NCBI GenBank assembly: GCA_902762305.1 | Contig: CACWNW010000025.1 | Coordinates: 1 to 64,000, forward strand | Source of the DNA: Fibrobacter succinogenes | GTDB taxonomy: Bacteria > Fibrobacterota > Fibrobacteria > Fibrobacterales > Fibrobacteraceae | Length of the DNA stretch: 64,000 nucleotides | Direction of reading: 5' to 3' | In this document: positions 1 through 3,734 of the stretch, piece by piece | Position numbering within the stretch: the first letter of the stretch is position 1 | Layout of the letters: every line of letters starts with the position of its first letter | Notes under the pieces: generated by a model | What the model was told of the DNA's origin: nothing | What the model saw: only the letters and a program-made list of their open reading frames with translations | Database searches by the model: none | Program-made: the position numbers and the translations under genes

Positions 1-935
1 TCAAAGAAATCAATGAACGCAGAACCGATAGTCACCGCAATCCAGAACACCAGATACATGATGACAAGGAAAATCGGGAGTGCAGCCCAGCGGTTCAAAA
101 GAACTGCGTCAAGCTTGTCGGAGAATGTCTTCTTGGAACGCTTCTCCACAATAGCCTTCCCCGCCACTCCGTGCGCAATCGAATAGCGGTTTTCGGCCAT
201 CGCGAATTCCGGTTCTTCACCTAGAATCTTCACAACCTCGGCCTTGTCGAGCGTCACGCCCGCTTCGGCAAACTTGTCCGCATAGCTCTTTTCATTGCCC
301 AAGTACATGAGCGAAACCCAACGGGCATCCGTCGCCAAGAGTTCTGCGACCGGAGCCACCTTCGGTTCCAAAACCTTCACGGCTTCTTCGACCTTGTCGG
401 CATAGGCAATCTGCTTCGGGAGCGGCATCGGAGATGCAAGCACATGGCCCATCTGGCTGATAAAGTTGGTGACGCTCTTCTCGCTCACGGCAGAAAGCGG
501 AATGCACGGAACGCCGTAGAAATCAGAAAGTTCATCGAGGTCCAGCTGGATTCCGCGATTTTCGGCAATGTCCATCATGTTGACGGCAATCACCATCGGA
601 ATCTTCATGTCGGCAAGCTGGCTCGTAAGGAACAGGTTACGTTCAAGGTTCGTCGCATCGACGATGTTGATGATCAGGCTTGCTTCGCGGCTGAGCAAGT
701 AGTCGACAGCGGCGCGTTCATCTTCAGCATTTGCAAACAGGGCATAGGTACCCGGCAGGTCCACCAGGCGGATCTGGCGGTCGCCCAGTTCAAAGTAGCC
801 TTCCTTCTTTTCGACAGTCACGCCGGGCCAGTTACCCACATGCTGGCGGGCACCCGTAAGCGCGTTAAAGAGAGCCGTCTTACCGCAGTTCGGGTTACCG
901 GCAATCGCAATCGTCAAAAGTTTTCTTGCGGCCAT
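1..935 (-). CDS. feoB: Ferrous iron transport protein B, N-terminal part (cut by window edge)
   Basis: Inner-membrane Fe(II) transporter with a cytoplasmic G-protein domain. The first 311 codons are present; the remaining membrane part lies outside the window. The G domain is intact: G1 motif GNPNCGKT at residues 13-20, G3 DLPG at 59-62, G4 NMMD, and the start of a hydrophobic segment near the window edge. The ATG overlaps the feoA stop codon (TAATG), and the AGGAGG ribosome-binding site lies inside the end of feoA, so the two genes are probably translationally coupled. It is the last visible gene of the regulator-feoA-feoB operon. Confidence 0.96.
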   Translation of the reverse strand, partial: MAARKLLTIAIAGNPNCGKTALFNALTGARQHVGNWPGVTVEKKEGYFELGDRQIRLVDLPGTYALFANAEDERAAVDYLLSREASLIINIVDATNLERNLFLTSQLADMKIPMVIAVNMMDIAENRGIQLDLDELSDFYGVPCIPLSAVSEKSVTNFISQMGHVLASPMPLPKQIAYADKVEEAVKVLEPKVAPVAELLATDARWVSLMYLGNEKSYADKFAEAGVTLDKAEVVKILGEEPEFAMAENRYSIAHGVAGKAIVEKRSKKTFSDKLDAVLLNRWAALPIFLVIMYLVFWIAVTIGSAFIDFF

Positions 936-1170
936 TATACCCTCCTCAGCTTAAGAACGTTTGCTTCTTCCTTGCGCAGCGAAAGCCTGTACGAAAGTAC
1001 AGCCACCTCGATCGGGTCGCCGAGAGGGGCCGCCTGCAAGACTTCAATCTGGACGCCACGCACAAGCCCCATCGAAAGGAGCTTGGACTTGTAAGCGGAA
1101 TCGCCTTCGTTATAGCCGACGATTTCCACCTTGTCGCCGACTTGCCGCCGCAACCACAATTACAGCTCAT
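935..1170 (-). CDS. feoA: Ferrous iron transport protein A, with apparent frameshift near its start
   Basis: Small SH3-like FeoA domain that supports FeoB. The domain (GDKVEIVGYNEGDSAYKSKL onward, ending LKLRRV) reads cleanly to a stop that overlaps the feoB ATG. The best start, an ATG preceded by GAGG and opening MSCNCGCGG, is in a different frame from the domain: one base is missing, or two are extra, around 1140-1150. In the domain frame the only nearby start is a TTG at 1159 with no visible ribosome-binding site. Either the gene starts at that TTG, or the sequence carries an indel. Cys-rich N-termini of this kind occur in FeoA-like proteins, so I favour the indel. Confidence 0.8.
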
Positions 1171-1215: not shown

Positions 1216-1653
1216 TTATTTTGTGTTTTTGACAACCTTTGCTTTTTTTACCGACGGATTTTTCACGGAAGAAATCGCATCCGACGGCTTCATAAAATCT
1301 TCAATCTTTCCTAGGGTTTCTGCCGAAAGGATATGCTCCATGCAGCAGGCGTCCTTGTCGGCAATCGCCTCGGAAACTCCAAGCTTAATCAGGAACCCCT
1401 TCAAGAGAATGTGACGGTTCAAGATCATGGCGGCAACGCGCTGGCCCTCTTCGGTGAGTTCCACACCGCTATAGGGTTCCTGCCTCACAAGGCCCATTTT
1501 CTTGAGTTCAACCATCGCCTTGGCCACCGACGGCATCTTAACCGAAAGGGCCGCGGCAATGTCCTTAACGCGGGCTAGCCCGTTCGCGAGGCGCAGCATG
1601 TGCACCATTTCCAAATAGTCTTCAAGACTCTGAGTAAGTTTTGTATGGTCCAT
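1216..1653 (-). CDS. DtxR/MntR-family metal-dependent transcriptional regulator
   Basis: 145-residue iron- or manganese-responsive repressor. The N-terminal winged helix-turn-helix (about residues 8-65, with SLEDYLEMVHML and VKMPSVAKAMVELKKMGLV) is followed by the metal-binding and dimerisation domain, including the RHILLKGFLIKLG and DACCMEHILS segments that carry typical ligand positions (Glu, Cys, His). There is no C-terminal SH3/FeoA domain, so it resembles MntR-length family members. It is the first gene of the feo operon, and a palindromic TTAG-N6-CTAA site sits about 15 bp upstream of its ATG, which implies autoregulation. Whether the metal is Fe or Mn cannot be read from sequence; linkage to feoAB favours Fe. 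Confidence 0.92.
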   Translation of the reverse strand: MDHTKLTQSLEDYLEMVHMLRLANGLARVKDIAAALSVKMPSVAKAMVELKKMGLVRQEPYSGVELTEEGQRVAAMILNRHILLKGFLIKLGVSEAIADKDACCMEHILSAETLGKIEDFMKPSDAISSVKNPSVKKAKVVKNTK

Positions 1654-1668
1654 CTTAATTAGCCCTCA

Positions 1669-1753
1669 TTAGACGCGGCTAATATAGTTTAATAAATCTA
1701 ATTAGGCAAGGCTAAAAATATTACAACAGACATACTTTTTTAGACAAGCCTAA
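1669..1753. promoter_or_regulatory. Three DtxR-type operator palindromes and promoter of the feo operon
   Basis: Three 14-bp sites share TTAG-N6-CTAA: TTAGACGCGGCTAA (1669-1682), TTAGGCAAGGCTAA (1702-1715) and TTAGACAAGCCTAA (1740-1753). On the minus strand a TATATT -10-like box (1681-1686) abuts the first site, so a bound repressor would cover the transcription start of the regulator-feoA-feoB operon. The half-site TTAGnC/GnCTAA matches the general DtxR/IdeR-type half-site. Seen directly; the link to the adjacent regulator is inference. Confidence 0.75.
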
Positions 1754-1806
1754 TTTTGAAACAAAAAATTTACATAATTTTAATGTTTTCGCCCTTGTCT
1801 TTCTAG

Positions 1807-1841
1807 TTAGTTTTATCTAACTTTTAGTTAGACAAGTCTAA
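1807..1841. promoter_or_regulatory. Two further DtxR-type operator palindromes facing the proS side
   Basis: TTAGTTTTATCTAA (1807-1820) and TTAGACAAGTCTAA (1828-1841) repeat the same TTAG-N6-CTAA pattern, 66 bp or more from the feo-proximal sites. The second overlaps a plus-strand TAATTCTG box (1839-1846) that could serve as a -10 element. This suggests a second, rightward metal-regulated transcript that ends at the terminator near 1965. Confidence 0.65.
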
Positions 1842-1852
1842 TTCTGATTGTG

Positions 1853-1969
1853 GCCATAGCTTTCGGACCTCGGCTTGTCTGGTTGAAGCAAAAATCCAAT
1901 TCCCTCCTTGTGTCTCTTTGGGAACGATTGCGCCCCCGCTCAAGTAGCTCTGAGCAGGGGCGTTTTTTT
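1853..1969 (+). ncRNA. Putative metal-regulated small RNA ending in an intrinsic terminator
   Basis: No open reading frame explains this stretch. It ends in a strong rho-independent terminator: a 12-bp GC-rich stem with one mismatch (1931-1942 with 1951-1962), an 8-nt loop and seven T. The body contains an apparently unpaired CCCTCCTT segment (about 1903-1910), complementary to Shine-Dalgarno sequences, as seen in iron-responsive base-pairing RNAs such as FsrA. Two DtxR-type palindromes lie immediately upstream. The start is a guess from a -10-like box. The alternative is a leader or attenuator of proS, whose ATG lies 70 nt downstream of the terminator. Confidence 0.35.
1931..1969 (+). terminator. 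Intrinsic terminator upstream of proS
   Basis: The stem begins CGCCCC and closes GGGGCG, about 12 bp with one mismatch, followed by TTTTTTT. It lies between genes and before the start of proS, so it terminates something other than proS, or attenuates proS. Confidence 0.85.
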
Positions 1970-2039: not shown

Positions 2040-3734
2040 ATGAAACTCTCCAAGTATTTTTACGTCACGCTCCGCGAAACGCCGAGCGACGCCACCATGC
2101 CGAGCCACATCTTCTTGATGCGCGGCGGCTACATCAAGCCCGTTTCTACCGGTATCTACTCCATGATGCCGATGGGTTTCCGCGTGATCCAGAAGATTGT
2201 AAACATCATCCGCGAAGAAATGAACAAGATTGGCGGTATCGAAGTGGACCTGCCGGTGGTGCAGACCGCTGAACTCTGGAGCGAATCGGGCCGTTACCAG
2301 GCCATCGGCGAAGAACTCCTGCGCTTCAAGGACCGCAACAACCACAACATGGTGCTCGCCATGACGCACGAAGAAGCCATGACCGACCTGGTGCGCTACG
2401 TGCTCAACAGCTACAAGCAACTGCCGGTGATGCTCTACCAGTTCAAGACCAAGTACCGTGACGAAGCCCGTGCCCGCGGCGGCCTTATCCGCGTCCGCGA
2501 ATTCCTGATGAAGGATGCCTACAGCTTCCACACCAGCCAGGAAGACCTCGACCGTCACTACCAGGAAGAATACGATGCCTACCTCCGCATCTACCGTCGC
2601 GTGGGCATTGAACCGGTGGTGGTGCAGAGCGATACCGGCATCATGGGCGGTAAGGTCGCTCACGAATTCATGCTCGATACTCCGAACGGCGAAGACTACT
2701 TGATTCTCTGTAAGAAGTGCGGCTACCAGGCCAACCGCGAAATCGCGAAGTTCCAGCGCGTGCCGTTCAAGGGCGACGAAAATGCGGCCCTCGAAAAGGT
2801 CGCCACGCCGAACAGCGAAAGCATCGACGAACTCACCAAGTTCCTGAACGTTCCGGCTGAATCGACCGCCAAGTGCGTGTTCTTCGACTTCGAAGGCAAG
2901 CTCATCACGGTCGTTGTTCCGGGCAACCTCGACGTTTCCGAAATCAAGCTTCACAACTTGCTGAAGGCGAAGGAACTTTACCCTGCCGAAGACAGCCTCA
3001 TCAAGGCCTGCGGCATGGTTCCGGGCTTTGCGTCCCCGATTAATTCTCACGATACGCGCGTCATCGTGGATGAAGCAATCGCTGATTCCTTCGATCTCGT
3101 GACGGGTGCCAACGAAGAAGGCTTCCACTTCAAGCATTGCAACCCGAAGCGCGACTTCCCGAAATTCGAAGTGGCCGACATCGCCGAAGCATCCGAAGTC
3201 TGCAAGTGCCCCTGCTGCGGCGAGCTCCTCACCGAGACCCGCGGCATCGAAATGGGCAACATCTTCAAGCTGGGCACCAAGTTCTCTGAATCTATGGGCG
3301 CCAAGTTCCTCACCGCCGAAAAGACGACCGCTCCGGCCATCATGGGCTGCTACGGCATCGGCGTGGGCCGCCTGATGGCCTCTGTCGTCGAAAACAGCCA
3401 CGATGACTTCGGACCGATTTGGCCCAAGTCCATCGCGCCCTTCCAAGTGGAAATCGTCCCAATCGGTAAGGAACCGGAACTTGCTGAACTCGCTGAAAAG
3501 TTCGAAAAGGAACTCGAAGCCGCCGGCATCGACGTGCTCGTGGACGACCGCGACGAACGCCCGGGCGTGAAGTTCAAGGACGCCGACCTCTGGGGTTCTC
3601 CGGTGCGCATCGCCATCGGCAAGAAGGGCCTCGCAAACGGTGAAGTCGAATGGAAGTTCCGCAACGAGAAGGAATTCTCCATGGTCAAGGTCGAAGACGT
3701 TGTCGCCAAGGCCAAAGCCTACTTCGCTGAATAA
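2040..3734 (+). CDS. proS: Prolyl-tRNA synthetase
   Basis: Charges tRNA-Pro in the cytoplasm. At 564 residues it is the long bacterial type: class II catalytic core with motif 2 (YRDEARARGGLIRVREF, about 137-155), an inserted YbaK-like editing domain (about 257-385), motif 3 (GCYGIGVGRLMASVV, about 436) and a C-terminal anticodon-binding domain. The start follows AAAGG 8 nt upstream, and a TATTTTTA box lies about 30 nt before the ATG. It is followed by its own terminator and so is probably monocistronic. Confidence 0.97.
   Translation: MKLSKYFYVTLRETPSDATMPSHIFLMRGGYIKPVSTGIYSMMPMGFRVIQKIVNIIREEMNKIGGIEVDLPVVQTAELWSESGRYQAIGEELLRFKDRNNHNMVLAMTHEEAMTDLVRYVLNSYKQLPVMLYQFKTKYRDEARARGGLIRVREFLMKDAYSFHTSQEDLDRHYQEEYDAYLRIYRRVGIEPVVVQSDTGIMGGKVAHEFMLDTPNGEDYLILCKKCGYQANREIAKFQRVPFKGDENAALEKVATPNSESIDELTKFLNVPAESTAKCVFFDFEGKLITVVVPGNLDVSEIKLHNLLKAKELYPAEDSLIKACGMVPGFASPINSHDTRVIVDEAIADSFDLVTGANEEGFHFKHCNPKRDFPKFEVADIAEASEVCKCPCCGELLTETRGIEMGNIFKLGTKFSESMGAKFLTAEKTTAPAIMGCYGIGVGRLMASVVENSHDDFGPIWPKSIAPFQVEIVPIGKEPELAELAEKFEKELEAAGIDVLVDDRDERPGVKFKDADLWGSPVRIAIGKKGLANGEVEWKFRNEKEFSMVKVEDVVAKAKAYFAE

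Follow-up and report, generated by a model that had tools for sequence, protein, structure and literature searches.

The window, a 64,000-nucleotide stretch of a Fibrobacter succinogenes contig (CACWNW010000025.1), appears to encode a trans-acting iron-sparing small RNA (sRNA) resembling RyhB, FsrA and MrsI, which would be controlled by a DtxR-family repressor and would pair with the frdC messenger; we place the probability of this reading at roughly two in three. Conserved operators, a conserved non-coding block with its terminator and a conserved complementarity to frdC can be read directly in the DNA; we infer transcription, metal control and repression of frdCAB. In the proposed mechanism, the adjacent DtxR/MntR-type repressor would occupy TTAG-N6-CTAA operators when metal (most likely Fe2+) is replete, silencing both its own gene and the RNA. 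Under metal shortage, the RNA would be transcribed from a promoter at 1795-1823 to a terminator near 1968, and its loop UUGUGUCUCUUUGGGA would pair through 15-16 bases with the frdC ribosome-binding site, blocking translation of the fumarate reductase/succinate dehydrogenase operon, whose product is rich in haem and iron-sulphur clusters. The initial annotation of this region had postulated a discrete, Shine-Dalgarno-pairing RNA controlled by a metalloregulator of the DtxR type, and the comparative evidence supports such an arrangement.

Genomic context

The genome that contains the window (G000) comprises 3.6 Mb in 57 contigs and is 95% complete; the relatives with which it was compared are mostly Fibrobacter, F. 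succinogenes metagenome-assembled genomes (MAGs) among them. The RNA and the operators occupy a 386-bp gap between the repressor gene and proS (Table 1), and on the far side of the repressor gene, to the left of feoA, we recognized by reading a coding sequence resembling feoB.

Table 1. Features of the RNA locus and its neighbourhood, with positions numbered along the window.
Feature	Position	Strand	Evidence
feoA-like protein, in the adjacent feo genes	935..1159	-	Pfam FeoA, E=2.9e-17
Metal-dependent repressor of the DtxR/MntR family (145 aa), oriented divergently to the RNA gene	1219..1653	-	Pfam Fe_dep_repress and Fe_dep_repr_C; nearest solved structures MntR
Operator 1, TTAGACGCGGCTAA, dtxR side	1669..1682	.	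half-sites kept in 32/32 loci
Operator 2, TTAGGCAAGGCTAA, overlapping the likely dtxR -35	1702..1715	.	kept in 32/32 loci
Operator 3, TTAGACAAGCCTAA, dtxR side	1740..1753	.	kept in 31/32 loci
Likely -35 of the RNA promoter, TTGTCT	1795..1800	+	TTG invariant, TTGTTT nearly so; outside operators
Operator 4, TTAGTTTTATCTAA, within the RNA promoter spacer and -10	1807..1820	.	kept in 31/32 loci
Likely -10, TAACTT, 17 nt after the -35	1818..1823	+	5/6 positions invariant, first in 31/32
Operator 5, TTAGACAAGTCTAA, covering the predicted RNA start	1828..1841	.	half-sites kept in 27/32 loci
Small RNA gene (putative start ~1831, end at terminator)	1831..1968	+	conserved block, 32/80 genus genomes, covariance model
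Invariant GCCATAG	1853..1859	+	100% conserved
Hairpin TTCCC-loop-GGGAA with core TTGTGTCTCTTTGGGAA, predicted pairing to the frdC ribosome-binding site	1900..1924	+	core 99% conserved
Intrinsic terminator	1929..1968	+	stem in consensus fold; different terminator stem in G017
proS, downstream neighbour, outside the proposed system	2040..3734	+	Pfam; sequence there differs in relatives

Conservation and predicted structure of the RNA

The conserved block measures about 120-140 nt, and its alignment runs from the operators to the T-run of the terminator, where it stops sharply; the terminator that the initial annotation had seen before proS is real, and the conserved block ends there. A covariance search in related genomes, which the same annotation had put forward as a check, recovered the RNA from 32 of 80 Fibrobacter genomes, nearly always with E values below 1e-20 (3e-8 for the most divergent copy); in the rest of a set of 168 genomes from the phylum, no match exceeded chance. 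Weak matches of the model in G135 and G115 were judged to be chance or terminator-only, and low-scoring matches on the opposite strand coincide with the RNA loci themselves, so that the terminator hairpin is their likely cause. When divergent homologues were sought in RNA-lacking genomes with the core 17-mer (up to two mismatches), the inspected matches had neither operators nor terminator.

Conservation is concentrated in a few segments, reaching 100% in GCCATAG and GGTTGAA, 99% in TTGTGTCTCTTTGGGAA and 95% in the terminator, with lower values in the 5' segment (77%) and at 1860-1880 (73%). The constrained core TTGTGTCTCTTTGGGAA corresponds to positions 1908-1924, and the 17-nt core UUGUGUCUCUUUGGGAA in the hairpin loop is almost invariant even in the divergent copy of G017, in which GCCAT, GGTTGA and the core are retained along with two operators and the terminator has a different sequence (GCGCCTCGCATC...GATGCGGGGCG with a T-rich tail). 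The predicted fold consists of a variable 5' hairpin, the TTCCC/GGGAA hairpin with a 15-nt loop, and the terminator, a 12-13-pair stem followed by a T-run at about 1929-1967. Folding energy alone is unremarkable (z of about -1), and sequences this similar show little covariation. One RNA copy (L042/L010, G064) carries a 20-nt tandem duplication in the variable 5' hairpin, and another (L017, G078:C186) diverges from the other copies immediately ahead of the terminator, being either a truncated gene or an assembly chimaera. GCCATAG could base-pair with start codons that have GC after them (CUAUGGC), which makes it a possible, so far unsupported, candidate for a second pairing site; a bipartite anti-Shine-Dalgarno/anti-AUG model (GGAG-N-CTATGGC) gave fewer matches than its control pattern.

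Operators and promoter

Five copies of TTAG-N6-CTAA lie within 173 bp (1669-1841), in the stretch that separates the RNA from the divergent dtxR/mntR-like gene. The whole 3.6-Mb genome holds 11 copies, compared with 89 for the control pattern read backwards, and the clustering of five of the 11 in 173 bp corresponds to a Poisson probability of about 3e-19. The initial annotation had reported two of these palindromes, at 1807 and 1828; both are present, and three more, at 1669, 1702 and 1740, complete the set. Across 32 distinct aligned loci the half-sites are nearly invariant and the six central bases vary, the pattern expected of operators. Such conserved inverted half-sites at the promoters of the regulator's own gene and of metal genes are consistent with a DtxR-family operator set; in place of the Fur boxes of a Fur-controlled sRNA, the locus has palindromes common to the RNA and a DtxR-family gene.

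The elements TTGTYT (1795-1800) and TAACTT (1818-1823) are nearly invariant among the aligned loci, lie partly outside the operators and are separated by 17 nt, the same spacer as in the likely dtxR promoter, TTGCCT-N17-TATATT. The -10-like TAATTCTG named in the initial annotation does occur, at 1839-1846, but it is only partly conserved and varies between genomes. The promoter thus probably lies farther upstream, at 1795-1823, and transcription would be expected to start at about 1830-1832, under operator 5, giving an expected RNA of about 137 nt from position ~1831, as against about 115 nt (start ~1852) with the previously proposed -10. Under either placement, the operators cover the promoter. 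Among the horse-faeces Fibrobacter loci (L057-L060, L085-L088, L097), most retain operators upstream of the regulator but have no such RNA at that place.

The regulator and its metal

Within the DtxR family, the regulator is one of the short, MntR-like proteins, and it aligns best with MntR. Inspection of that alignment by eye shows primary-site ligands that combine an MntR-like Asp with a DtxR-like Cys-x-x-Glu-His, so the metal site, judged by these residues, is an Fe/Mn hybrid. Since the ligand set is mixed, iron specificity has to be deduced from feo and the predicted frdCAB target; feoA and that target make iron the most likely metal, with manganese possible. PgMntR of Porphyromonas gingivalis has the same Asp/Cys/Glu/His combination and, as here, a feo gene beside the regulator (PMC4805248). 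It differs in carrying twin C-terminal FeoA domains, and the available text on PgMntR describes no sRNA with it (PMC4805248). With the regulator as query, no relatives were found in viral contigs.

Predicted pairing with frdC

In 1.64 Mb (~46% of the genome), 1159 translation start regions were predicted and then ranked by their longest ungapped pairing with the RNA, allowing at most two G-U pairs. The frdC match was first spotted while reading the neighbourhood of frdB, and the ranking over all 1159 regions was run afterwards. This target prediction against ribosome-binding sites, also advised in the initial annotation, placed frdC first, with 16 pairs between RNA positions 1908-1923 (UUGUGUCUCUUUGGGA) and mRNA positions -20 to -5 (UCUCAAGGAGACACAA), covering the Shine-Dalgarno sequence, versus 12 pairs for the runner-up. 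The gene encodes the cytochrome b subunit (TIGR02046) and heads an operon in which the flavoprotein FrdA and the Fe-S subunit FrdB follow. Messengers of the sdh/frd type are targets of RyhB, PrrF and FsrA. The annotation's expectation of Shine-Dalgarno pairing is thus supported in kind, with a shift in place: its segment CCCTCCTT is present at 1902-1909, adjoining the constrained core, but is less conserved (CCCTCTTTT or CCCTCTT in relatives), and pairing would run mainly through the loop UUGUGUCUCUUUGGGA, not CCCUCCUU.

frdC could be read in 28 of the RNA-bearing genomes, 27 of which keep the pairing. For 26 copies, complementarity between the RNA and the frdC of one and the same genome extends over 15-16 bases; G064, whose RNA bears the duplication, was compared by reading and has an identical loop and frdC site. 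Two copies deviate, a second one in G014 and the single frdC read in G071; their start region equals that of another lineage, and they may represent foreign sequence in the MAGs.

Other routes to targets gave little. Whole-RNA duplex energies against the start regions showed no excess over shuffles; no second iron-protein target stood out among the 1159 start regions; genes with Fe-S/radical-SAM cysteine motifs, in a sample of only 9, paired no better than others; and a genome-wide search for the 17-mer complement of loop and Shine-Dalgarno sequence, with up to three mismatches, returned no start-region match. The start region of a small ferredoxin (L176:15921) resembles the loop complement, yet only 9 bases pair. 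A potential pairing of 9-10 bases with the RNA loop (CAAAGAGGC) also occurs in the start region of a gene for a Fur-like protein (G000:C1, L163:7447-7848).

Alternative explanations

Conserved promoter elements and terminator, together with variable downstream sequence, would fit an independent non-coding transcript. The block could instead belong to the gene that follows, here proS, as its attenuated leader or 5' untranslated region, a concern that the initial annotation had itself raised, and its same-strand position upstream of proS with a terminator between is what such a leader would show. The regulator side, however, is common to the aligned loci, whereas conservation ends with the terminator and the sequence downstream of the RNA varies from genome to genome, which argues against a proS leader; no Rfam leader matches either, and we regard this reading as very improbable. 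A small protein gene under the repressor seems hardly credible. In the window's own genome an open frame does run from GTG 1850 through the region, but copies differ in length by 1, 2, 3 and 20 nt, and the 1-3 nt differences and the 20-nt tandem duplication speak against a conserved peptide; there is no ATG, and the constraint follows the loop and the stems. The earlier remark that some 115 nt lack a gene agrees with the comparison, in which no reading frame is conserved.

Two further alternatives accept the RNA and change its metal or its target. The regulator might sense Mn2+, making this a manganese-controlled sRNA like RsaC of Staphylococcus aureus, and the Feo transporter might then carry manganese (compare PgMntR and FeoB2 of P. 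gingivalis). The regulator's closeness to MntR, its PgMntR-type site and the MntR control of RsaC (PMC9294342) would fit; the best predicted target, however, is an Fe-S/haem enzyme, and the genes served by the operators lie beside feoA and a second feoB, so we consider manganese control rather unlikely. It is also improbable, in our estimation, that a genuine metal-repressed sRNA acts mainly on other messengers and matches the purine-rich frdC ribosome-binding site by coincidence. Dinucleotide-shuffled RNAs reach 16 pairs with some start region in 5 of 200 cases (2.5%), the scan covered less than half of the genome, and among the RNA-lacking genomes read, 18 of 40 likewise have AAGGAGACACAA before frdC; the RNA is thus not required to explain the site, which, by this distribution, is older than the RNA or independent of it in part of the genus. 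Complete genomes are among those that lack the RNA and keep the site, which suggests loss, late gain or replacement of the RNA as possibilities. Against coincidence, the match uses exactly the 16 most conserved nucleotides of the RNA, its target class is the classical one for iron-sparing RNAs, and only 1 in 50,000 shuffles reaches 16 pairs with frdC itself.

Relation to known regulatory RNAs

In iron-sparing sRNAs, an RNA gene under a metal repressor carries a segment that pairs with ribosome-binding sites (PMC9294342). The Fibrobacter RNA would share with RyhB, PrrF and FsrA a metal-repressed gene, an intrinsic terminator, ribosome-binding-site pairing and an sdh/frd-type target; their repressor is Fur, whereas the one here belongs to the DtxR/MntR family. 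A search of the region against Rfam 15 gave no match at gathering score (best E 0.18), and by descent, as far as sequence comparison tells, the RNA is none of the Rfam families, RyhB, PrrF and FsrA included. The Pfam Hfq domain, which the genome of an Hfq-dependent sRNA would encode, is absent from the 95%-complete genome, while five control genomes match. Closer in regulation is MrsI of Mycobacterium tuberculosis, an iron-sparing sRNA of about 100 nt with an IdeR box, a DtxR-family site, in its promoter (PMC8628891). It differs in phylum, seed and targets (bfrA, hypF), and its regulator gene is not adjacent, as far as PMC8628891 states. For MntR, a 2022 review names RsaC, and it has no sRNA entry for DtxR itself (PMC9294342); RsaC likewise stands under an MntR-type regulator but is a different RNA responding to manganese, while the Fibrobacter RNA has a feo context and a predicted iron-enzyme target.

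The RyhB/FsrA/MrsI-like anatomy, combined with the lack of an Rfam family by descent, points to an RNA family that is new but functionally of a known kind, and no published description of such an RNA in Fibrobacter was found in the open-access literature. If the proposal is correct, this would be, as far as we found, the first iron-sparing RNA in Fibrobacterota and among the few under a DtxR-family regulator, for which MrsI under IdeR is the precedent (PMC8628891); RyhB-type logic would then have evolved anew, using an unrelated RNA and a different repressor family and lacking a recognizable Hfq. We tentatively extend this to an undescribed Fibrobacter RNA family that, through a DtxR/MntR-type sensor and without Hfq, lowers fumarate reductase, the succinate step, so that in a major fibre degrader of the rumen the fermentation products would be steered by metal supply. 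For rumen bacteria, the proposal would offer a testable connection of succinate production to the supply of iron.

Further operator sites in the genome

Additional sites at a regulator paralog, gpmA and a second feoB suggest that TTAG-N6-CTAA probably marks the regulon of the adjacent repressor, which would bind it. The paralog (G000:C31:25961-26368, L102) is 78% identical to the regulator and has an operator about 40 bp upstream; two regulator copies also occur in several relatives. By eye, an operator-like site (G000:C31:1989-2002, L101) lies between the end of the second feoB-like gene and a porin-like gene, which is followed by ECF-transport-like genes, and a similar site in a relative (G066:C7:12129-12165, L136) is likewise near a gene for a porin-like protein. 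A perfect operator, TTAGACTTGTCTAA (G000:C46:1611-1624, L100), is located about 60 bp upstream of gpmA, which encodes the cofactor-dependent phosphoglycerate mutase, and suggests metal-dependent switching between phosphoglycerate mutase types.
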